Below are positions 4,738 to 61,541 of a DNA stretch of 64,000 nt, one piece after another. This DNA is from an uncultured Pirellula sp. (lineage in GTDB: Bacteria > Planctomycetota > Planctomycetia > Pirellulales > Pirellulaceae). The position numbers were made by a program, and so were the translations under genes. The notes below the pieces were generated by a model. It ran no database searches. It had not been told where the DNA came from and worked only from the letters and a program-made list of their open reading frames with translations. Location of the stretch: positions 1 through 64,000 of the forward strand of contig CAIOHR010000424.1 of assembly GCA_903858115.1 (NCBI GenBank). Direction: 5' to 3'. How positions within the stretch are numbered: position 1 is the first letter of the stretch; the number at the start of each line of letters is the position of its first letter.

Positions 4738-5523
4738 ATGGCGAGACGACAACTCAAGGGGGCACGGATTCTGGTTACGGGAGCATCCAGCGGTATTGGC
4801 CGAGCACTTTGTGTGAGGCTTTGCAAACACGGTGCAAGTGTTCTAGCCACCGCCCGGCGTGAAGACCGATTGGTAAGACTTCAAGCCGATTGTGCTGAAC
4901 TCCCGGGGACATTGCGGATCATCGCGGGCGACTTGACGCTCGACTCACATCGAGAAGCGATTCTTCAATGGGTCGCCAGTCAATGGGGCGGAATCGATGT
5001 ACTCGTGAACAATGCTGGGGTCGGTGCTATTGGGCGATTCGACGAAGCGACACAAGACAGACTTCGCCAGGTAATGGAAGTAGATTTTTTTGCACCGGTC
5101 GAATTAACTCGTCTCTGTTTGCCATGGCTTCGAAAGGGAAACCGCGCGGCAATTCTCAACGTAGGGTCTGTGCTGGCCCATCGAGCGGTACCGAACAAAA
5201 GCGAGTATTGTGCAGCGAAGTTCGCGATACGTGGTTGGTCCGAATCGTTGCGTGTGGAGTTAGCCAAAGAAGGTATCGATGTGTTAATGCTTAGCCCGAG
5301 CACAACACGAAGTGAGTTTTTCGACTCGCTTGTGGATACCAATCCGCAAGAAAAAAGTCGCTCGGTTGGGAGTATGAGCGCGGATCGAGTCGCGCAGTTG
5401 GCAGTTTCTGCCCTTGTGCGATCCAAGCGAGAGATGATCTTGAGCGTAGGCGGGCGAGTTCTGGTTTGGGCAGGTCGGTTGTTTCCGCGGCTGACGGATC
5501 GACTGCTCTCAAGATTCGCCTGA
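4738..5523 (+). CDS. SDR family NAD(P)-dependent oxidoreductase
   Basis: A 261-residue classical short-chain dehydrogenase/reductase. The Rossmann nucleotide motif TGASSGIG is at residues 14-21, NNAG follows the fourth strand, and the catalytic Ser144, Tyr157 and Lys161 are present in S..(12)..YCAAK. RR after the second beta strand (TARRED) suggests NADP(H) preference. The C-terminus has a hydrophobic, Arg-rich tail (VWAGRLFPRLTDRLLSRFA) that may associate with membranes, as in DltE/YqjQ-like SDRs. The substrate cannot be told from sequence. It sits 22 bp downstream of hflX on the same strand. Confidence 0.9.
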   Translation: MARRQLKGARILVTGASSGIGRALCVRLCKHGASVLATARREDRLVRLQADCAELPGTLRIIAGDLTLDSHREAILQWVASQWGGIDVLVNNAGVGAIGRFDEATQDRLRQVMEVDFFAPVELTRLCLPWLRKGNRAAILNVGSVLAHRAVPNKSEYCAAKFAIRGWSESLRVELAKEGIDVLMLSPSTTRSEFFDSLVDTNPQEKSRSVGSMSADRVAQLAVSALVRSKREMILSVGGRVLVWAGRLFPRLTDRLLSRFA

Positions 5524-5704
5524 GATTTTTCTGTCATGACGATGGTCGATTACAAAATGGAAGATCGCTCACGGTCGAGAGAAGTTAACAAATCGATGTC
5601 ATATCTGTTAAACTCCTTCTTCGAAATGTAAGCAGCTCTTGAAAAGTGAGACTGCTATACTTCATCGGATATCAACAAAACTCTCCTCAACGAAAGAAAC
5701 GAAC

Positions 5705-6442
5705 ATGAACGCAATCGACATTTTGGGCAGCTTATTGGGAGCACCTCAGCCGGGTGGAAGTCGCCCAGGTGGCAACCCAACAGGTGGCGGGCAACCTAGA
5801 AGCGGCGGTGCCAGCGGAGGAGGTTTGGGAGATATACTCGGCGAACTATTGGGTGGCGGCCAGTCCAACGCTGGTCGCCCGATCAATACTCAATCCTCCG
5901 CAAGAGAGCTTGAGGATATGTTGAACGTAGGTCAAGAACCCCGATCGACGCCAATCCCGAGCCAACCTCAACCGCGCTCTGCGCCAGCGCCAACACATCG
6001 CCCCGGATTGCCACCTGACATCTTCGGCCAGCGACAGCGAGTGGAGCCCAAGATCAGTCTTAGCGTGCCCAAGCCTGCTTTGCCATCACAGAATGATCAA
6101 GCGGTATTGATGATACGCTCGATGATCAACGCTGCGAAAATCGACGGTGAAATAACGGAAGAAGAACAGCAGAGTATCTTGAATCAAGTGAGTGATACGA
6201 GCCCTGAAACAATTCAGTTTTTGAGAACAGAATTTGCTCGTCCTCTGAACGTCGAGGAATTTGCTGCTTCCATTCCGATAGGCTTGGAACACAAGATCTA
6301 TGGACTTGGGTTGATGGCTATCAAGTTGGATAGTCGTGAGGAAGCGGATTATCTACGCCAATTGGCAAAGCACCTTCGCATCTCGCCGGAGGAATGCAAT
6401 CAATTGCATCAACAACAGAAAGCACCGCTTCTCTATCAGTAG
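5705..6442 (+). CDS. DUF533/TerB-like protein
   Basis: The 245-residue protein starts at the ATG at 5705. An upstream in-frame extension to 5639 looks non-coding. The N-terminal half is a low-complexity Gly/Pro/Arg region (PGGSRPGGNP, SGGGLGDILGELLGG). The C-terminal 120 residues, from NDQAVLMIRSMINAAKIDGEI to the end, match the helical DUF533 (YebE-like, TerB-related) domain: AAKIDGEITEEEQQSIL, an acidic DG...E loop, then FARPLNVEEFA and a DSREEADYLRQLA helix. Function is unknown. The fold suggests a metal-binding or stress-related role. A second TerB-like protein lies at 13430. Confidence 0.85.
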   Translation: MNAIDILGSLLGAPQPGGSRPGGNPTGGGQPRSGGASGGGLGDILGELLGGGQSNAGRPINTQSSARELEDMLNVGQEPRSTPIPSQPQPRSAPAPTHRPGLPPDIFGQRQRVEPKISLSVPKPALPSQNDQAVLMIRSMINAAKIDGEITEEEQQSILNQVSDTSPETIQFLRTEFARPLNVEEFAASIPIGLEHKIYGLGLMAIKLDSREEADYLRQLAKHLRISPEECNQLHQQQKAPLLYQ

Positions 6443-6459
6443 TTCAATACTGACACAAC

Positions 6460-6567
6460 CGACAAAAGTAGTAGGCACGCTCCGTCGTGCCGTCCGCTCT
6501 TGAAGATTTGCAGGGATTCTAGGTGGACGGCACATGGAATGTGCCTACTACTTTGACTTTTGTCGGC
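6460..6567. repeat. Nested inverted repeat, possible mobile palindromic element
   Basis: Outer arms ccgacaaaa...gtagtaggcac (left) and gtgcctactac...ttttgtcgg (right) are inverted copies. An inner pair, gtgccgtcc (6488-6496) and ggacggcac (6525-6533), lies inside. The whole folds into a long imperfect hairpin between the convergent ends of the DUF533 gene and the hydrolase gene. It may serve as a terminator, but the size and nesting look like a REP- or MITE-like family. I recall similar strings between genes in planctomycete genomes but cannot check it here. Confidence 0.6.
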
Positions 6568-6592
6568 GATGCCGATGCAACGCATTCCATTA

Positions 6593-7522
6593 TTAGGGTG
6601 AGGTATCCTGTAAAACCTTAGCAAGCCATTCTCGTGCTAGCTCACGCGTTGGGGAGGGACGAAGTATCCATTTGTCGCTGTGATTCTGAAATCCGGTTGA
6701 AGCATACGTGATGTTGCCCTCGCTCACTGTTTGGGAAATCAGCAATTCAGTCCGTTTCAAACCGGCCAAATCCTCGTCGCAAACAAATTGTTTTCGCCCC
6801 TTCAGTCTCGCTAGACGCGACGCTGCATTACCAGATTCACTTTGCGTGAATGGCCAATTGCGCACTCCATCGTAATGACTATAGACAAAGAAGCCTTTCC
6901 ATGTTTTGGCGATTTCTTCATTCTGCAAACCGAGATAGTTGCACGCGATCGCGCCTCGTGAAAATCCGCAAAGGATGATCCGATTTCGATCGGCCCCATA
7001 CTGTTCGCAAATAGAATCAATCGTCTTCAGGCAATAGCCCATCGTGGGTTGTGGATTGTAATTTGGAGGATCACCCCACCACGTTTTCGTAATCTTTGTC
7101 CCCGAATGATCGACAAAAGGTAGCGAAACCCAGATACATCCAACTCCGGCAGAAAGCCCGAAACCCAGGCTGCAATCCTCGGGCAATCCCGTGGAAACAT
7201 CGCCAAGCTTCCCAGTGTGCATGTTGCCTCCAAACTCCACTAACAACGGATATTTTGGTGACGGTTTCCAGTCTTTAGGCAAGTACAGGCAATGATAAAG
7301 CCCATTCTCTTTTTTGTTGGAATCGAACACGAAGACACGTCTACCCGGAGCTGCATTCATGTCGCTGATTGATGGAACTTGCAGATCTGGTTCAGCAGAG
7401 TCTAGTCGTGGAATGGAACCAGCGGTAACTACTTCCTGAGCTACCGCATCGCTAATGATCGCGATGGAAATGGCCGCAATCGAGACGAGTCGCCTTATAT
7501 ATTTCGTCAACGCGTTTTCCAT
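6593..7522 (-). CDS. Secreted alpha/beta-hydrolase fold protein
   Basis: A 309-residue protein with an N-terminal signal peptide (YIRRLVSIAAISIAIISDAVAQ). The body reads as an esterase/dienelactone-hydrolase type fold: LLVEFGGNM (first strand and oxyanion region), DRNRIILCGFSRGAIACNYL with nucleophile Ser in GFSRG, and a late His in TGFQNHSDKWILRPSP. The acid residue is probably within the FVCDEDLAG region. It resembles poorly characterised planctomycete hydrolases. The substrate is unknown, and an extracytoplasmic location is inferred from the signal peptide. Confidence 0.75.
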   Translation of the reverse strand: MENALTKYIRRLVSIAAISIAIISDAVAQEVVTAGSIPRLDSAEPDLQVPSISDMNAAPGRRVFVFDSNKKENGLYHCLYLPKDWKPSPKYPLLVEFGGNMHTGKLGDVSTGLPEDCSLGFGLSAGVGCIWVSLPFVDHSGTKITKTWWGDPPNYNPQPTMGYCLKTIDSICEQYGADRNRIILCGFSRGAIACNYLGLQNEEIAKTWKGFFVYSHYDGVRNWPFTQSESGNAASRLARLKGRKQFVCDEDLAGLKRTELLISQTVSEGNITYASTGFQNHSDKWILRPSPTRELAREWLAKVLQDTSP

Positions 7523-7568
7523 GTGCTGCTCTTTTCATCTCTCATGCTGTTGATCATTGGCGTAGAAC

Positions 7569-8063
7569 TCACGCGAACTGCCGGCAGTACTCATAAACGG
7601 CCATCGTTGTTGCGGTTGCAACGTTGTAGGAATAAGGTTTGCCGAAGACCGGGATCTCGACAACTCGATCGAGTTTGTTCAATTCTTCTTGATTGAGGCC
7701 CTCACGTTCGCTGCCGATAATGAGAGCTGTTTTTGAAACGAATTGGAAATCAAATAGAGCCTCGGACCCGGAAGTTTGCTCCAATCCCACGCGTTGGTAT
7801 CCATCGGCTGCGAGTTGATCTAGCACGGGAGCTAACGAACGGCGCTGCGTGATTTCTACTACATCGATCGCATCGCGAGCGATTTCACGATCGACGCGTC
7901 CCGGACCACATTGAATCAATTGCGTGATGCCTGCGCACCCGGCAAGCCGTACGATACGACTGAGGTTAACGTTACTGCGCATGGGTGCCAAGACCAGCAA
8001 AAGCTCTCTTGGTCCAGTCAGCTCCGTGGGTGGTTTGTGCCGAATATGTTCGAATCGGTTCAT
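7569..8063 (-). CDS. SpoU/TrmH-family RNA 2'-O-methyltransferase
   Basis: A 164-residue SPOUT-fold protein. It has the three SpoU motifs: motif 1 SNVNLSRIVRLAGCAGI (with the N..R pair), motif 2 TALIIGSEREGLNQEEL, and motif 3 VEIPVFGKPYSYNVATATTMAVYE. The last two build the SAM-binding trefoil knot. It lacks the N-terminal RNA-binding domain of RlmB, so it is closest in size to TrmL/TrmH-like tRNA methyltransferases. The exact target nucleotide is not predictable. The ATG at 8063 is the natural start. Confidence 0.88.
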   Translation of the reverse strand: MNRFEHIRHKPPTELTGPRELLLVLAPMRSNVNLSRIVRLAGCAGITQLIQCGPGRVDREIARDAIDVVEITQRRSLAPVLDQLAADGYQRVGLEQTSGSEALFDFQFVSKTALIIGSEREGLNQEELNKLDRVVEIPVFGKPYSYNVATATTMAVYEYCRQFA

Positions 8064-50809: not shown

Positions 50810-51856
50810 TTGGCTAAAACAACCGCTGCTGTAACTACCAAGAAGAAATCCTCCGCTTCTGCGGTCTCCAAAGCGAAAGGCAGTTCAGCGAAACTGCCAG
50901 GTAAAGAGTTCGCCAAGAAATCAAATGCAAAAACTACGGCAAAGACAGTGGCAAAATCTGACGCAAAGACCTCTCCGCAGACTAGCACAAAGTCAACTGG
51001 AAAGTCTACTAAGCCAGCCGGAAAGACAAAACAAACCGCTGTTGCACCAGCCAAGACGACATCGAAGCCGAGCGTTAAAACCGAAACGATGCGTTCGTGG
51101 TACGATCACCCCGAGCTTTATGAATTAGGCTTTCTGAAAGAAACTCCAAAAGAGTCTGAGTTTCTCATTGACGTATTTGAAAAATATGTCCCCTTTCCCG
51201 TCAAGCGAGTTTTGGAACTCGGTTGCGGCTCTGGCCGCTTGATTTGCGATATGGCAGGGCGCGGATTCTCCATGACGGGTGTTGATCTGAATCCCATGTC
51301 GCTGGACTATTGTAAGAAGAAACTCAAGAAGGAACGCAACAAAGCAGAATTGGTCGTGGGTGACATGACCAACTTCAAGTTCGACGAGCAATTCGATGCT
51401 GCCGTGAATGCCATCAACACATTTCGCCATTTGGAAACGGAAGAGGCAGCATTAGCGCACTTGAATTGCGTTGCAGAGCATTTAAAGCCCGGTGGCGTTT
51501 TCGTCCTTTCGCTGCATCTACTGCCCAAGGGTGGCGATCTATGGGGGACGGAACGATGGGGAGCCAAGACGGAGGATATGTCGGTTTACTACGCTCTTAC
51601 CGTCGTGGAAACCAGCATGAAAACGCGTCTTGAGAAATTGAGGATCTCGATGCTGGTGAAAAAGAAGGATGAGTCGTTCCGGCTATCGGATCACATTACA
51701 CTTCGCATCTACACCGTAGAGCAATTGAAGTCTCTTTTGGCAAAATGCAAGAAGCTCAAACTCGTTGGGGTCCATGATTTCTGGTACGACATCGAGTCGA
51801 AACAAAAGCTTAACAGCGACGCATGCGATACCATTCTTGTCTTGCAAAGAACTTAG
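50810..51856 (+). CDS. SAM-dependent methyltransferase with Lys/Ala/Thr-rich tail
   Basis: The protein is about 348 residues from a TTG at 50810 (GGAG eight bases upstream; the track frame also opens at TTG 50780, less likely). Residues 1-90 are Lys/Ala/Thr/Ser-rich with AKTT and KSDAKT repeats, resembling histone-H1-like bacterial tails. Residues 95-340 form a class I methyltransferase: WYDHPELYELGF, then motif I VLELGCGSGRLICDMAG, then motif II VVGDMTNFKFDEQFDAAV, then HLKPGGVFVLSLHLLP. The substrate is unknown. A small S4-domain protein follows 29 bp later. Confidence 0.82.
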   Translation: MAKTTAAVTTKKKSSASAVSKAKGSSAKLPGKEFAKKSNAKTTAKTVAKSDAKTSPQTSTKSTGKSTKPAGKTKQTAVAPAKTTSKPSVKTETMRSWYDHPELYELGFLKETPKESEFLIDVFEKYVPFPVKRVLELGCGSGRLICDMAGRGFSMTGVDLNPMSLDYCKKKLKKERNKAELVVGDMTNFKFDEQFDAAVNAINTFRHLETEEAALAHLNCVAEHLKPGGVFVLSLHLLPKGGDLWGTERWGAKTEDMSVYYALTVVETSMKTRLEKLRISMLVKKKDESFRLSDHITLRIYTVEQLKSLLAKCKKLKLVGVHDFWYDIESKQKLNSDACDTILVLQRT

Positions 51857-51885
51857 CATTTCGAACGCCTGAAGTACCAACCAAA

Positions 51886-52122
51886 ATGACTCCTGATCCA
51901 TCGTCACCTGACAACCAAGCATCGAATTCCGAGAACTCCCCGGAGCCACTTCGTTTAGATCATTTTCTTCAAACCAGGGGATTGTTCGAATCGGGGGGGC
52001 AGGCAAAGCATGGTATTCAAGCGAGCGAAGTCAAGGTCAATGGGCAGATCGAAACACGGCGTCGTCGAAAGCTCGTGCCGTCGGACGTTGTCGAGTTCGC
52101 AGGTAAGAAATACGTGGTTTAA
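51886..52122 (+). CDS. Small S4-domain RNA-binding protein
   Basis: A 78-residue protein from ATG 51886. Upstream in-frame codons to 51823 lie inside the methyltransferase gene, so they are rejected. The S4 fold is clear in LRLDHFLQTRGLFESGGQAKHGI and VKVNGQIETRRRRKLVPSDVVEF, as in YbcJ-like small S4 proteins. It is probably co-transcribed with the methyltransferase and may bind ribosomal RNA. Confidence 0.85.
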   Translation: MTPDPSSPDNQASNSENSPEPLRLDHFLQTRGLFESGGQAKHGIQASEVKVNGQIETRRRRKLVPSDVVEFAGKKYVV

Positions 52123-52326
52123 TGGATCAAGTCATTTCGCATAAGAAAAAAGGGGACATCGCTCCTGCCGAAACGCAGGTTCCAGCACATGGATTGAAGG
52201 TATAGGTTTTGTGTTTTTGATCCCTCATTCCACTGCTGTTCGGAGTGAAAACACGGTACTATTGTGCTTTTCGGGTAGCGACCGTTGCACTGCCCATGCT
52301 TCCTCTGAAGGGAAAGAGCCCAAGAA

Positions 52327-52638
52327 ATGAAGCAGATTGTTGCCATCATTCGTCCGTATCTCGCAGAACGACTGTTAGATGGTCTAAGATTATCCCCGCT
52401 TGAAGCATTGCAAGTAGCCGAGGTAAAGGGTTATGGACGACAAAAAAGCTACTTGGACCAATACTCTTCCACCGAGTTCTCGTTGGCTTTTTTGCCTAAA
52501 ATCGAACTGTCGCTTTGGGTGGATGATCTTCGACTTGAAGAAGTCGTCAAGACAATTGTAGACACTACCCGATCAGGCAGAATGGGAGATGGGAAACTAA
52601 TGATTCTCTCCGCAGAAGATCGCACTCCTCCTCTTTAA
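52327..52638 (+). CDS. P-II family signal protein (divergent)
   Basis: A 103-residue member of the P-II (GlnB/GlnK) family, trimeric sensors of ATP, ADP and 2-oxoglutarate. Alignment without gaps to E. coli numbering gives Gln39, Lys40, Tyr46, Lys58 and the B-loop GDGK (87-90). The T-loop is GYGRQKSYLDQYSSTEFSLAFLPK, with Phe at position 51, where Tyr51 is uridylylated in enteric GlnB. The C-loop is shorter, with Pro101 and Leu103 where Arg101 and Arg103 are usual. It is followed after 3 nt by fhcB, so it is probably a specialised regulator and not general nitrogen PII. Confidence 0.85.
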   Translation: MKQIVAIIRPYLAERLLDGLRLSPLEALQVAEVKGYGRQKSYLDQYSSTEFSLAFLPKIELSLWVDDLRLEEVVKTIVDTTRSGRMGDGKLMILSAEDRTPPL

Positions 52639-52641
52639 GGT

Positions 52642-53862
52642 TTGGGTCGTAACATGCTTTGCTGTTTCTGCTCCCTCTTGTGTGATCGCGAAGATCTCCA
52701 TCGCGGATGCAATATCCGTTCCGATGCGCTGAAGACGTTGAACTCGTATGACGTAACGAAAGAATCCAGTCATTCAAAATCGCAGTCGAAGATAGATGAA
52801 ATTGTTGAGAGCCTCAGGCGAAGGTTGGTTGAATCGACCAGCATCTTAATGACAGGGCGGATCTACAGCGTCGAAACCTCTCGCGCGGTGTTGCAGTCAG
52901 CAAGGTCGCTTGAAGCCTCGCTGGACGCATCGGAATTAGGCTGGGCTATAAACAATGCATTTGCGACGGCAAGAAACGGCTCGTTTACCACATCATTGGC
53001 AGATTCGCGTGCTACGAGTCAAACATTCATCGTACTGGACGACGGTTCGCTCCTGGACCGATTCCCGCGTCTTCCCCATGCTCTTTGTTTGTGCAGTGGA
53101 GACCAGAAGGATTCACGAACGGTTTTACTGCTAGGTTCGCCAACAAGTGCAGCGATTGAAACCTGGACGGCGCGGTTTCCTAATACTTGGTCAGTCCCCT
53201 GCGCTATGGAACATGTGACCAATGCACTGAATCAATGGACCAGCCATCGGAAGCATTTGGCTGACAACACCTCGTCATCATGGCTTGATGATCTGCGAGC
53301 ATCGACCTACACCTCGATTCTTTGGTCTCCGGCATGTCTGTCGTCTGTTTCTCAGCCAGACCTATGGATCGAGGATTTGATGCATTGGATCCGTAGCCAA
53401 AACGAAGAAACGCGATGTTCCAGTCTCACTCTATCGGGATTAGATTCTACCTTTCAACAGGTCTGCACATGGACGACGGGCTTTCCTGGGCGCATTCGCT
53501 TTCGAAATGCGAATACGATCTTCGAACCGATGGAATCGAATTACCTTTCTTGGATAAATCGGCAATGCAATGATCCTAATGCTTTAATCGTTAGCGTGGA
53601 CGAAAGCGTTAAAGCCATACCATTCCTGCCTAAAAGCGTTTTGGATTCCTTTGCAGGCACCATCGTGGAGCTCCATGGACGTAGCCTGGAAGTCAATCAG
53701 AATGGTTCGCGTGTGCGTCTACCCATCAGAACCGCAGGATACGAAATGGATGCAACGATCTCCAGAGCTGATCAAGTTGTGATGGCCTTCGTCCCACGAC
53801 AATCCCCGACTGCCGATGACTGGCCGACACCCGCAGAATGGTTAGCGAGGCTCTCCACGTGA
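52642..53862 (+). CDS. fhcB: Formylmethanofuran dehydrogenase-like subunit B (FhcB)
   Basis: A 406-residue protein starting at TTG 52642 (ATG 52654 is an alternative). The N-terminal CCFCSLLCDREDL resembles the Cys-rich start of FwdB/FmdB, and the C-terminal part ends with a short basic region. In bacteria the homologous FhcB lacks the tungsten/molybdenum pterin and serves the formyltransferase/hydrolase complex. I call it FhcB mainly because its 3' end overlaps fhcA and because the N-terminal Cys motif fits. The centre of the protein is divergent, so this call depends on context. Confidence 0.75.
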   Translation: MGRNMLCCFCSLLCDREDLHRGCNIRSDALKTLNSYDVTKESSHSKSQSKIDEIVESLRRRLVESTSILMTGRIYSVETSRAVLQSARSLEASLDASELGWAINNAFATARNGSFTTSLADSRATSQTFIVLDDGSLLDRFPRLPHALCLCSGDQKDSRTVLLLGSPTSAAIETWTARFPNTWSVPCAMEHVTNALNQWTSHRKHLADNTSSSWLDDLRASTYTSILWSPACLSSVSQPDLWIEDLMHWIRSQNEETRCSSLTLSGLDSTFQQVCTWTTGFPGRIRFRNANTIFEPMESNYLSWINRQCNDPNALIVSVDESVKAIPFLPKSVLDSFAGTIVELHGRSLEVNQNGSRVRLPIRTAGYEMDATISRADQVVMAFVPRQSPTADDWPTPAEWLARLST

Positions 53863-55514
53863 TTACTCACTTAGCAAACGGCATGTGTGTCGATGGCGTA
53901 GGCGACACTAAGGTTCGAAGTCTCTATCTCGTGAACGGCTTGATTGCTGAGAGCATCGAACCGACTGCAAAAATAGACGCCAACTATGATGTCCGCGGCA
54001 AAGTCCTCATGGCGGGCGGCATTGACCTGCATACGCATATCGGAGGTGGAAAAGTCAATATAGCGAGACTCTTGCTCCCGGAACTCGTTCTGCCAAAAAT
54101 CGAGTCGTTTGATTCGCATGGTATCCGTCAGCTTAGCGCTCCAGTACCAACCACATGGGAAACAGGGCTTCGCTATCTCGAAATGGGATACACGACCTGC
54201 ATGGAACCTGCCGTCCTGCCAGCAAACGCACGTCAAGCGCATCGTGAAATGGCGGACATTCCATGGCTGGACACGGGCGGCTATTTGTTATTGGGGAACG
54301 ACCGCATGTTGTTACGCTGGATTGCGGAAGGCGTCTCTCAAGAACAGATCAACCAGTATGTCGCATGGATGTTAAAGGCGCACCAATGCTGCGGTGTCAA
54401 GGTCGTGAATGCAGGAGGCATTGATGCCTTCAAATTTAATCAACGCCATTTGGATGTGGATGAGTCCCATCCCGTATTCCCCGTTACACCACGAGATATT
54501 CTTCGTGCACTAGCACAAGCGGTAGACGAATTGAGACTCGCACATCCGCTTCATGTCCACTGCAGCAATTTGGGCGTGCCTGGCAACATAGCATCAACCC
54601 TCAAAACACTTCAAGCGGTGGAGGGCCGTCGGATTCATCTGACACACGCACAGTTTCATTGCTACGGGACTGGTGGACCTCACGGCTTCAGCTCCGAAGC
54701 CTATCAACTCGCGGAATACGTCAATTGGAATTCTCATGTCACCATTGACATTGGCCAGGTGTTGTTCGGACAAACGGTTACCATCTCGGGTGATACTATG
54801 CATCAATTCGCGAATCGAAATCTTGCTCGACCGCGAAAGGTGATATTCCAAGATTTAGAATGCCAAGCGGGATGTGGCGTAGTTCCTTTTCGTTACAAAC
54901 AAGACCAATACGTACATGGATTGCAGTGGACGATCGGCCTGGAACTCTGCTTAAGGATCTTGGATCCTACACGCGTTTTTTTGACAACCGATCATCCTAA
55001 TGGAGGTCCATTCACGGCATACCCACACCTCCTTCGATTGTTAACGAGCTACGACTTTCGTATGTCGATCTTCGAACGTCTTCATCCCGACGTGCAGAGC
55101 AGTAGTTCACTCCCCTCGTTAAAGCGTGAGTATACTCTCGAAGAGATCGCCCAAATGACGCGACGCGGGCCCGCCAAAATCCTCGGGCTTCAAGATCGCG
55201 GGACACTCGAAAGCGGAAAAGTTGCGGACGTTGTCGTTTATGATCCGTCCGAGAAACTCGACACGATGTTCTCAAGCCCGACGATGGTGTTTCGGCACGG
55301 TGAACTTGTCTATCGAGATGGGCAGGCACTGAAAGGCTCCTGCAAAACTACCATCGTGGCAAACCCATCCGTCGAAACAAGTATGAACGCTCGATTGAAT
55401 CGAGAGTGGCCAGAACAATATGGATATAACACGGATATGGTTCGCATCGTCGACGAAGAATTGCTCAGCGGCGGCCACCGGCTAAAAGCCGCCACTCCAC
55501 TGAGTTCTTCCTAG
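53859..55514 (+). CDS. fhcA: Formyltransferase/hydrolase complex subunit A (FhcA)
   Basis: A 551-residue amidohydrolase-fold subunit of the complex that hydrolyses formyl-methanofuran to formate in bacteria. Motifs are GGIDLHTHIGGGKVNIARL (the HxH metal site), CCGVKVVNAGGIDAF (the carboxylated Lys), HPLHVHCSNLG and LTHAQFH (His ligands), and TTDHPNGGPFTAYP (the Asp). They match FwdA/FmdA throughout. The GTG at 53859 overlaps the fhcB stop as GTGA and has GAGG eight bases upstream. An ATG at 53838 would lengthen the overlap. It forms the operon PII-fhcB-fhcA. Confidence 0.92.
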   Translation: MITHLANGMCVDGVGDTKVRSLYLVNGLIAESIEPTAKIDANYDVRGKVLMAGGIDLHTHIGGGKVNIARLLLPELVLPKIESFDSHGIRQLSAPVPTTWETGLRYLEMGYTTCMEPAVLPANARQAHREMADIPWLDTGGYLLLGNDRMLLRWIAEGVSQEQINQYVAWMLKAHQCCGVKVVNAGGIDAFKFNQRHLDVDESHPVFPVTPRDILRALAQAVDELRLAHPLHVHCSNLGVPGNIASTLKTLQAVEGRRIHLTHAQFHCYGTGGPHGFSSEAYQLAEYVNWNSHVTIDIGQVLFGQTVTISGDTMHQFANRNLARPRKVIFQDLECQAGCGVVPFRYKQDQYVHGLQWTIGLELCLRILDPTRVFLTTDHPNGGPFTAYPHLLRLLTSYDFRMSIFERLHPDVQSSSSLPSLKREYTLEEIAQMTRRGPAKILGLQDRGTLESGKVADVVVYDPSEKLDTMFSSPTMVFRHGELVYRDGQALKGSCKTTIVANPSVETSMNARLNREWPEQYGYNTDMVRIVDEELLSGGHRLKAATPLSSS

Positions 55515-55546
55515 GCTTCGTTGCAAAAAGCAAAGTCTAGGATGGC

Positions 55547-58500
55547 TTACGAATTCCTGCGGTAGTTGGGCTGATTGCCGCCGCTCTTCATCTTCGGTTT
55601 GACCATCAATAGCCGATGGCTAGGAATGCCGAGTAGATCATCGAGGCGAGTTCGAAGCTCGCGGTCGATCGCTACTTTTTGCTTCGCTGCTTTCAAGTGA
55701 ACGGTCTCCCCTGAATGGAGACGCAACGCGAACATCACATCGCGTGTTCCAGGGTATCCACGCAGGATCTCTCGAATCTTGCCAATGATCTCCGAATCGT
55801 GTTTGTTTTGGTCGTAAAGAATATGAATGCCCGTCGTAAACTTGGTATCAGCATCACCGATGGGAATCAGTTCGTTGACTACGAAATTCACGTCGTCCCC
55901 TTCCCCTTTCTTATCTACTGTCCCCCGGGCGAGAACGACAGCATCGTGCTGAATAAGCTCACCGTATTGCTCAAAATCGTTAGGCCAACAGATCGCTCGA
56001 ACGTAGCCGTCCATATCCTCCAAATCAAAGTTCGCATACTTCGACGACTGACCTGGTTTGGGATTTCGCGTATGAGCGATTTTGACAGACGAAATCATCC
56101 CGCCCATCAATACCTCATCGCGATGTTTGCAATTTTTGATCGAAGCAGACGTATGCGAGCAAAACGCTTGCAGTGTCGTGGCATATTCGGAAAGAGGATG
56201 TGCGGAAAGATAGTAGCCTAAGACTTCTTTTTCCATCGCCCACTTTTCACGGTCTGGAAACTCGGGCACATCGGGCAACGTTATCTTGATCTCTTCGGTT
56301 GCTTCCTCAAAGTCATCGAACAGACTCATTTGTCCGCTCTTCTTGTCCTTAAGCTTCGAGGCTCCCCCTTGAAGAGCCTTTTCAATGACGGCCATCATTT
56401 GCGCACGCCGCGCGTTGAAGCAATCCATGGCTCCCGCCTTGATCAAACATTCAATGGTTGCTTTACCACAAGCGGACGGATCGACTCGTTCACAGAACTC
56501 GAAGATATCCTTAAAGTGTCCGTTCTTTCTGCGTTCTTCGGCAATCGAATCCGCCGCTGAGCCACCACAACCTTTGATTGCAGACAAACCGAAGAATATC
56601 TTGCCGTCGGCAACACTAAAGCCCCCGGTACATGTGTTGACATTGGGTGCTTCAACGACGATTCCCATTCGCTGGCAGTCTTCGATATGCTCGACGAGCC
56701 CATCTTTTCGCTTGAAATTTCTGTTCGGAATATCACCCGTCAGCAGAGCCGCCATGAACTCGACTTTATAGTGAGTCTTGAGATACGCTGTTTGGTACGC
56801 GACCAGCGCGTAAGCCGTCGAGTGGCTCTTGTTAAAACCATAGCCAGCGAACTTCAGAATCATGTTCCAGAAGTCTTCGGCTTCTTTCTTGGACAGTCCT
56901 TTCTCCTCACATCCGGCCAAGAATTTTTCAGCATTGGCGGCGATCATGTCTTCCTTTTTCTTGCTGATCGCTTTGATGCACGTATAGGCTTTCGCCAATT
57001 CAATACCACCGAGGCGATTGAGAATTCGCATCACCTGCTCTTGGTAAACCATAACCCCATTGGTCTCACCAAGGATCTCTTCGAGCACAGGATGGATGTA
57101 ACTCGCCTGCTTCTTCTTCAGCTTGACCGCAACATACTCGTCAACCATTCCCCCTTCAAGCGGCCCAGGGCGGTACAATGCATTCGTCGCGATAATGTCG
57201 TGGAAGTGATCGGGCTTCATCCGTTGCAGAAGATCGCGAATACCACCCGACTCCAATTGGAAAACCCCTTTCGTCTCCCCTCGCTTCAAGAGTTCAAAGG
57301 TTTCTTTGTCATCTAGGGGAAATTCAAGCGGATCAATCCGTTTTCCGCTCGTCTGCTCGATGATATCCACCGACTTGGACAAGATCGTCAAGTTGCGCAG
57401 CCCCAGGAAGTCCATCTTCAAAAGACCCGCAGCCTCGACATCACCCATCGACCATTGCGTAATGATGTCTTCTTTGCCAGACACACGCATCAAGGGTACG
57501 TATTCCGTGAGCGGTTTGTCAGCAATCACAACCGCAGCAGCGTGCGTGCCGATGTTTCTGGCCATCCCCTCAATCTTCATCGCATAATCGAGTAACTCTC
57601 GAACATCGGGGTCGTTCTCGTAGAGCTTCTTCAGGTCCGCGCTAGCTTTCTCTGGGTCCCCTTGGCCCAACGCATCTTTGATCAAGATCTTTGGATCGTC
57701 CGGGACGAGTTCACTGACTTCGGCGACTCGACTCAACGGCAACCCCAGTGTACGTCCTACGTCTTTGATCGCACCTCGGGCTTTGAGAGTTCCGAACGTT
57801 CCGATCTGCGCGACGTTGGATTCCCCATACTTTTCCTTCACATACCGAATAATTTCGCCACGCCGCTCCTGGCAAAAATCGATATCGATATCGGGTGCCT
57901 CCAACCGGCTCTCATCGAGAAAGCGTTCGAACAGCAAGTCGTAGCGAATCGGGCAAACGTGCGATAAATACAACGCAAAGCAGACGAGTGCTCCCACCCC
58001 AGAACCCCGTGCGGTGGCTGGCACATTGATCTCGCGAGAGTAGCGCACGAAATCCCAGACGATCAGAAAGTAATTGGAGAATCCAAGCTTGGTAATAACA
58101 CCGAGCTCTCGGTCTAATCGCTCCATCACCACCGTCGCTAGCTCTCCATTCGAGAACATGTTTGGATTTTTAGCATAGCGATCTTTCAGCCCCGCAATGC
58201 ACAGTTCACGAAGATAGTCGTCTGCGGTGACTTCTTGGCGTGGCAACCGATAGGTTGGGAAATTCCGCTTTCCTAATTCGAGATCGATGTCGACCGTGTT
58301 GGCAATCTCTTGGGAACGGGCGACAGCATCCGCGTGACCTGGGAAATGTTGATACATCTCTTCCGGCGAACGCAGATAAAACTGATCTCCTTCCATCTGC
58401 ATGCGATTGCGGTCAGTCCGAAATTTTCCGGTCGCGATACAAAGCAGCACATCCTGAACTTCAGCGTCTTCTTTGTCGACATAGTGCGCATCGCTCGTTG

Positions 58501-61043: not shown

Positions 61044-61541
61044 ATGTCAATGTACGTCGGCGAAGCCTTGGTAGGCGATGGTAACGAAATTGCTCACATC
61101 GATTTGATGATCGGTAGCAAAGATGGTCCCGTGGGTGTAGCCTTTGCGAATGCTCTCGCAAATCAAAGCAATGGACATACGAACTTGCTCGCAGTTCTCA
61201 CTCCGAACGTGGCTGTAAAACCCAGTACGGTCATGATCACCAAAGTGACTATCAAGGGAATGAAGCAAGCGGTTCAAATGTTCGGCCCTGCACAATTCGC
61301 AGTTGCCAAAGCAGTCGCAGATAGCGTGGCTGACGGAATCATTCCAAAGGATCAAGCAGAAAACCTCGTCATCGTCTGCGGCGTGTTTATCCACCCAGCA
61401 GCAAGCGACGACAAGAAGATCTACGAGTACAACTACCAAGCTACGAAGGACTCGATCAAGAATGCAATGGGCGGCCTACCTACAGCTCAGCAAATGATCG
61501 ACCAAAAAGATACAGCGTCCCACCCTTTCAAGGGCTTCTAG
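61044..61541 (+). CDS. fae: Formaldehyde-activating enzyme
   Basis: Fae catalyses condensation of formaldehyde with tetrahydromethanopterin to methylene-H4MPT, the entry step of the H4MPT pathway. From ATG 61044 the product is about 165 residues, the usual length. Family strings are YVGEALVGDGNEIAHIDLMIG (the catalytic His in AHIDL), GPVGVAFANALA, GHTNLLAVLTPNV, KVTIKGMKQAVQMFGPAQFAVAKAVADSVADG and YNYQATKDSIKNAM. A longer frame from 60942 has no family support. A hairpin follows at 61604. Confidence 0.95.
   Translation: MSMYVGEALVGDGNEIAHIDLMIGSKDGPVGVAFANALANQSNGHTNLLAVLTPNVAVKPSTVMITKVTIKGMKQAVQMFGPAQFAVAKAVADSVADGIIPKDQAENLVIVCGVFIHPAASDDKKIYEYNYQATKDSIKNAMGGLPTAQQMIDQKDTASHPFKGF

Follow-up and report, generated by a model that had tools for sequence, protein, structure and literature searches.

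Most of what is known of P-II proteins concerns nitrogen control and, to our knowledge, the role of the archaeal-type one-carbon pathway in planctomycetes is unsettled. Among described cases in which a P-II gene is tied to other genes are the PII-NG proteins, which adjoin the czcABC metal pumps (available part of PMC7726332), and the PII-nadE and PII-amtB pairs, in which conserved linkage predicted physical interaction (available part of PMC7196632). Here we describe a locus in a 64,000-nucleotide stretch of DNA (the window; contig CAIOHR010000424.1 of assembly GCA_903858115.1) from an uncultured Pirellula sp., in which a P-II gene directly precedes an fhcB-like gene and fhcA. A sequence-only reading of the window had described a tight operon of these three genes, and our analysis confirms the gene order, the P-II of 103 amino acids and an fhcB/fhcA overlap of 25 nucleotides. 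The same reading had placed fhcB 3 nucleotides behind the P-II gene, which holds if translation starts at the TTG at 52642; however, the fhcB genes of relatives begin at the in-frame ATG equivalent to 52654 (motif M-[IL]-C-x-x-C-S-L-L-C-D in the alignment), so we prefer that start, and the gap becomes 15 nucleotides.

Within the genus, the order P-II-fhcB-fhcA was found in 5 of 27 genomes, the window's included (G000, G023, G121, G006 and G012; G, L and C numbers are our labels for genomes, loci and contigs). The spacer between P-II and fhcB measures 11-15 nucleotides in all five, and the overlaps of fhcB with fhcA are short (25 nucleotides; 4 or 49 in G006). Eighteen of the 22 other genomes instead carry leuB (3-isopropylmalate dehydrogenase) directly before fhcB on the same strand (L036, L037, L039-L044, L046, L047, L068, L070, L072-L074, L076, L077 and L246); 17 of these leaders were called by open reading frame (ORF) cluster and that of G122 by tblastn, and the leuB of L077 was named by TIGR00169 (485.7 bits). 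The contig ends 5' of fhcB in the remaining four (G016, G008, G011 and G017). In all 23 readable genomes a leader gene is closely coupled to fhcBA, leuB in 18 and P-II in 5. There is no obvious metabolic reason for leuB to lead fhcBA in these 18 genomes.

Because the five linked genomes form one side of a branch in trees of DnaE (support 100/100) and FhcA (100/99) built from the 27 genomes, with the DnaE of G012 taken from one of two fragments, a single origin of the P-II-fhc order, in the common ancestor of these five congeneric species, is most likely. As these two trees agree on one clade, we do not favour the view that the operon spread from one lineage to another. The upstream neighbour varies within the clade: an S4/methyltransferase pair in G000, a TPR gene in G023 and G012 (in G023 this gene and an opposite-strand gene sit between the S4 gene and P-II), and a PQQ-propeller gene in G006 and G121. 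Downstream genes also differ where readable, and P-II-fhcB-fhcA is unchanged across all three upstream contexts. In that 5 of 5 members of one clade retain the order, the arrangement goes beyond chance. Between the two closest genomes, G000 and G023, the ratio of nonsynonymous to synonymous substitution rates (dN/dS) is 0.01 for P-II, 0.065 for FhcA and 0.23 for FhcB at a dS of 0.42-0.44; given these low ratios, all three genes are under purifying selection and look functional.

We hypothesize that a rearrangement in the ancestor of the five species placed fhcBA directly behind the P-II gene, which would have taken the place held by leuB in the other genomes of the genus. From that point on, fhcBA would have been co-transcribed with the P-II gene and probably translationally coupled to it, and the output of the formaldehyde pathway would follow the same signals as P-II. 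With a carbon/nitrogen-sensor gene as leader instead of leuB, expression of fhcBA should follow the P-II operon. We give a probability of roughly 55% to this reading, in which a carbon/nitrogen-sensor operon drives the expression of fhcBA and perhaps tunes it, and the coupling would lie mainly at the level of expression.

Outside the genus, inspection by eye of 67 genomes in which both genes were located found none with this P-II less than 20 kb from fhcA on one contig, and in many of them the two genes are on different contigs. The distance is 20-27 kb in six genomes of two families (G165, G166, G176, G185, G187 and G030); no operon joining P-II and fhcA was seen in gene maps of the stretches from G030, G166, G185 and G187. 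Conservation of the order in other planctomycetes, which the sequence-only reading had put forward as a check, was therefore found in part: the order is not unique to the strain but is confined to one clade. The operon as a general planctomycete trait was rejected on these counts (5/27 genus genomes, 0/67 others within 20 kb).

The P-II itself is far more widespread. A search for subfamily relatives (E up to 1e-22) matched 213 of 241 genomes in the family and 287 of the 396 order genomes sampled, with 54-99% identity to the window P-II among the matches listed for family and order; identity is 72-99% in linked genomes and 59-84% in the unlinked genus matches listed. A presence test covered 78 non-genus genomes: 2 of the 69 chosen with this P-II are without fhcA, and 8 of the 9 chosen without it (E 1e-22) have fhcA, so the presence of the two genes is uncoupled. 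Given this, and the breadth of the subfamily without the link, we rejected the idea that the P-II is Fhc-specific. To judge from its distribution, the window P-II belongs to an old subfamily that is far older than the fhc link and normally located elsewhere.

The usual neighbours of the subfamily are of another kind. A 2Fe-2S ferredoxin gene lies upstream of P-II on the same strand at 31 of 46 non-genus loci (within 160 bp in 28 of them; weak Pfam Fer2 match, over the cut-off), and glnE is convergent with P-II within 2 kb at 10 of the 46, many of the flanks being at most 1.5 kb and the loci being mostly the best-scoring rather than a random draw. This ferredoxin-P-II pair (L130, L225, L227, L228 and others), which glnE adjoins in some, is perhaps an unrecognised pair. 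Ferredoxin was not found at 20 P-II loci of the genus, where no search was aimed at it. Some genomes of one family have a fuller P-II block that adds thyA- and DHFR-like genes, and a few also have miaB- and fmt-like genes (by eye). We searched the literature on planctomycetes or methylotrophs for P-II together with Fhc, formylmethanofuran or tetrahydromethanopterin, and looked further for P-II with ferredoxin and planctomycetes and for P-II groups and gene neighbourhoods. Neither arrangement came up in the titles and abstract openings of the top matches listed, and the available part of PMC5020050 does not mention P-II or Fhc by name. Nor do the top matches listed include an account of an order-wide planctomycete P-II subfamily without the usual ATP contacts, often paired with ferredoxin, which is not proof of absence.

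The window P-II passes Pfam PF00543 (46.1 bits, cut-off 25) and falls below the GlnB/GlnK equivalog cut-offs NF008111 (65.5 vs 202 bits) and NF007946 (71.1 vs 181 bits). Its AlphaFold2 monomer has a beta-alpha-beta-beta-alpha-beta fold with a mean predicted local distance difference test score (pLDDT) of 77.4 and a poorly predicted T-loop (residues 40-43 and 47-50 below 50). The best PDB sequence match is the Aquifex P-II 2eg1 (E 6.7e-21), the best Foldseek match of the model is 3mhy, and the 50 PDB matches listed are all P-II, GlnK or GlnZ or complexes thereof. Three other P-IIs are held by the genome, and the canonical one (Tyr51), which is 37% identical to the window P-II, adjoins a gene with a GlnD uridylyltransferase domain. 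The alignment bears out every residue that the sequence-only reading had named, namely the retained Gln39, Lys40, Lys58 and GDGK along with Phe51, Pro101 and Leu103, and adds Gln29.

Residues were compared between 61 distinct members of the subfamily and 73 further P-IIs, most of them canonical, which were retrieved by the motif patterns EVKG-GRQK and GDGK, so that those motifs are conserved by construction and other positions are not. The source of the 73 was the best 80 loci of a scan that filled with ordinary P-IIs; of these 80, only L130-L136 and L147 are labelled planctomycete. The subfamily has the signature EVKGxGRQKSYLDxYxxxE[YF]SxxFLPK; Gln39, Lys40, Lys58, Gly87 and Lys90 are invariant in its 61 members, all of which also have Trp, Tyr or Phe at residue 64, and Lys/Arg9 is present in 60. 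Thr29 is found in just 9 of 61 members (vs 72/73 other P-IIs), and Arg at both 101 and 103 in none, with Arg at either in 3 (vs 72/73 for each position). Gly41 is replaced by Ser or Asn in 60 of 61, Glu62 is mostly lost, Arg47-Gly48 of the T-loop is lost in most members, and the C-terminus is variable and often short.

Nucleotide contacts of P-II include Thr29, Gln39, Gly87, Lys90, Arg101 and Arg103, and 2-oxoglutarate contacts are Gln39, Gly41 (backbone), Arg9 and Lys58 (available parts of PMC8395244 and PMC7919409), with Gln39, Lys58 and Arg/Lys9 given as the 2-oxoglutarate/Mg residues in the available part of PMC8395244. Since the subfamily retains Gln39, Lys58 and Lys/Arg9 and has lost Thr29, Arg101 and Arg103, its 2-oxoglutarate side is mostly kept and its nucleotide side partly lost. 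These residues indicate that the subfamily most likely senses 2-oxoglutarate (carbon/nitrogen balance) with an altered nucleotide site. The lost ATP contacts make the usual ATP binding less likely and leave P-II family membership unaffected, given the fold and score. The proposal that this P-II ties energy or carbon status to formaldehyde oxidation stands for the carbon side, where the kept 2-oxoglutarate residues make a carbon/nitrogen tie possible, but energy sensing is doubtful because Thr29, Arg101 and Arg103 are lost in the window P-II.

It had also been proposed that this copy cannot be uridylylated at Tyr51, which is true of it: around residue 51 it reads YSSTEF and does not match the uridylylation motif, which we take to be Y-[KR]-G-[AS]-[AE]-Y (PROSITE pattern). 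However, this is not the point, as 50 of the 61 subfamily members have Tyr at residue 51 and 11 have Phe, while Arg47-Gly48 is gone from most of the subfamily. Four of the 11 are linked and 7 unlinked, and the linked P-II of G012 has Tyr, so Phe51 was rejected as a mark of the Fhc link. The comparison of the 61 members revealed no T-loop change specific to linked P-IIs. A C-terminal tail, [SN]-[AT]-[ED]-D-x-x-P, is common to the five linked P-IIs and absent from the 13 unlinked genus members compared. This tail may have been left behind by the junction or may be adaptive. Since the window P-II is ordinary for its subfamily in identity and T-loop, it seems to keep its old role.

A second P-II gene, of a different type, stands near an fhc gene, and the genomes concerned are precisely the five with P-II-fhcB-fhcA. 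All of them (G000, G023, G121, G012 and G006) have the same-strand row fhcD2, a zinc-ribbon/GYF-like gene and PII258 (L079, positions 4829-7769, from the genome's own contig C258, and L284-L288), followed by an ABC ATPase in G000 and G023. The fhcD2 gene (own C258:40828-41769) scores 292.1 bits against TIGR03119 (cut-off 292.6); the gene between it and PII258 has a weak Pfam zinc ribbon match, and 'GYF' was assigned by eye. PII258 is behind fhcD2 at none of 20 other genus fhcD2 loci, with flanks of up to 1.5 kb (0.9 kb for G004); a close fhcD2 was not obtained from G003 and G017. All but one of the 27 genus genomes have PII258. At 21 of 21 unlinked loci it precedes an ABC ATPase, and it lies on a different contig from fhcD2 in the unlinked genomes that have both. 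By these gene orders, two separate fhc loci are judged to have acquired a P-II neighbour on the same branch.

Among the matches listed outside the genus, we saw by eye no P-II less than 20 kb from fhcA in 36 genomes, or from fhcD in the 21 of them with fhcD located. A candidate PII370/fhcD1 operon (G005, G019) was rejected, the genes being tail-to-tail on opposite strands with PII370 ~1.8 kb from fhcD1. This third P-II type stands at L340, L343 and L349 in a row PTPS - P-II - receiver-like - FIST, and the window genome's copy (C370; L080) has a P-type ATPase-like neighbour (by eye).

Several points weigh against the reading that fhcBA is coupled to P-II mainly through expression from its operon. 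Support for the five linked genomes as a group is just 79/67 in the FhcB tree (26 rows); the P-II tree (20 rows, 101 columns) fails to unite them and needs two label changes, so these two trees do not decide on spread. P-II gene pairs elsewhere (PII-amtB; nadE-PII) marked direct protein contacts (available part of PMC7196632), the P-II tail could have evolved to suit Fhc instead of being a junction scar, and promoter capture at one locus does not explain the second link of PII258 with fhcD2. The presence/absence result leaves the odds unmoved, since expression from the P-II operon does not depend on co-presence of P-II and fhcA. The main alternative, which we consider unlikely, is that the P-II trimer binds the Fhc complex via FhcB or FhcA so that Fhc activity is switched by 2-oxoglutarate, which would link formaldehyde oxidation to carbon/nitrogen status, the second P-II standing at the FhcD paralogue for the same reason; such direct regulation would be a plausible further step on top of co-expression. 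It would fit the tight operon retained in the linked clade, the clade-specific tail, the precedents of PII-amtB and PII-NadE (available part of PMC7196632) and the fhcD2 row, which is shared by the same five genomes and absent from the other 20 fhcD2 loci. By a rough, post hoc estimate that assumes ~40 neighbour slots, four fhc genes and 5,500 genes, 0.03 P-II/fhc meetings are expected and, given the first link, a second within two genes of an fhc gene has a chance of ~3%. However, most genomes keep the subfamily without the link, its presence is uncoupled from that of fhcA, no T-loop change sets the linked P-IIs apart (Phe51 occurs in 4 of the 5 but also in 7 unlinked members), and the listed P-IIs outside the genus keep their distance from fhcA and fhcD.

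More doubtful still is the view that a chance rearrangement put fhcBA behind P-II and that the genes have simply not moved since, with no functional tie. A single origin in one clade would be expected of such neutral neighbours, gene order turns over freely around the P-II types of the genus, and the commoner partner of this P-II is ferredoxin, with glnE near by in some. Yet P-II-fhcB-fhcA has stayed intact while upstream and readable downstream genes changed, the 11-15-nucleotide spacers are kept despite diverged P-II 3' ends and spacer sequences, and the link with fhcD2 recurs in the same five genomes. Least probable in our view is that the Fhc complex of this clade is under two P-II sensors, the ferredoxin-associated one at fhcBA and a second type at fhcD2, which would jointly place the oxidation of formaldehyde to formate under the control of 2-oxoglutarate; the window P-II would then read 2-oxoglutarate with little or no ATP/ADP discrimination. 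If the double P-II/Fhc link is functional, it would give a concrete and testable starting point for studying how planctomycetes regulate the archaeal-type one-carbon pathway.

Table 1. Positions in the window of the P-II-fhcB-fhcA locus and nearby features.
Feature	Position	Strand	Remarks
P-II gene	52327..52638	+	ATG start, 103 amino acids; planctomycete P-II subfamily
P-II/fhcB spacer	52639..52653	+	15 nucleotides, counted to the fhcB ATG
fhcB-like gene	52654..53862	+	best start ATG 52654; in-frame TTG 52642 possible; strongly diverged FwdB/FhcB family
fhcA	53838..55514	+	formylmethanofuran dehydrogenase / formyltransferase-hydrolase subunit A; 25-nucleotide overlap with fhcB
Operon 5' region	52123..52326	+	204 bp
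S4-domain gene	51823..52122	+	YaaA/YbcJ-like, below NCBIfam cut-offs; upstream neighbour, varies within linked clade
fae (formaldehyde-activating enzyme)	61050..61529	+	5.5 kb downstream of fhcA, same pathway

A scan of 51700-55900 found 2 sigma-70-like promoters and 2 terminators (3.8 and 3.6 expected from shuffles), hence no excess, and the GG-N10-GC (sigma-54-like) pattern has no site in 52101-52327. Gene maps of flanking loci were drawn with a simple longest-ORF picker and include some spurious antisense ORFs; the names ThyA, DHFR, MiaB, Fmt, IspD, SucC/D, P-type ATPase, MoeA-like and others were assigned by eye.

FhcA is over the NCBIfam cut-off of TIGR03121 (626.1 vs 392.75 bits) and retains in the alignment the amidohydrolase-site positions HxH, Lys, His, His and Asp, which are presumably its metal ligands. 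FhcB does not reach the cut-off of TIGR03129 (FwdB/FhcB; 54.6 bits, cut-off 327.8), and neither do the FhcBs of two genus relatives (80.4 and 59.3 bits); we call the gene FhcB-like because its match is near full length (residues 4-385 cover model positions 1-401) and because of its gene position. FhcB evolves fast, with 82.5% identity between G000 and G023 (DnaE 98.8%), yet its dN/dS is near 0.23. The genome further has a second fae copy, over the cut-off, and two FhcD paralogues, one over and one just under the cut-off, and fhcBA is located away from both fhcD copies. Some genus members have a second, canonical cluster fhcB-fhcA-fhcD (L051, L053 and L054), which adjoins tungsten aldehyde oxidoreductase-like and MoeA-like proteins (by eye).

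Compared with canonical GlnB/GlnK (PF00543), the subfamily shares the fold, Gln39, Lys40, Lys58, Lys/Arg9 and GDGK, whereas it is mostly without Thr29, Glu62, Arg101, Arg103, Gly41 and Arg47-Gly48, fails the equivalog cut-offs and has a variable C-terminus. The resemblance to the PII-NG clade (available part of PMC7726332) lies in a distinct P-II clade whose linked operon serves something other than nitrogen control; unlike PII-NG, and judged by neighbours, the window P-II has no metal-transport gene beside it. The PII-nadE and PII-amtB pairs (available part of PMC7196632) likewise couple a P-II gene to the gene of a metabolic target, but the P-II-fhc link was found in one clade only. Finally, the locus resembles the Fhc complex of methylotrophs and planctomycetes in the kept FhcA site positions and the FhcB-like protein, with FhcD and Fae elsewhere in the genome, and differs from it in that fhcBA stands apart from both fhcD genes, FhcB is strongly diverged and the leader gene is P-II or leuB.

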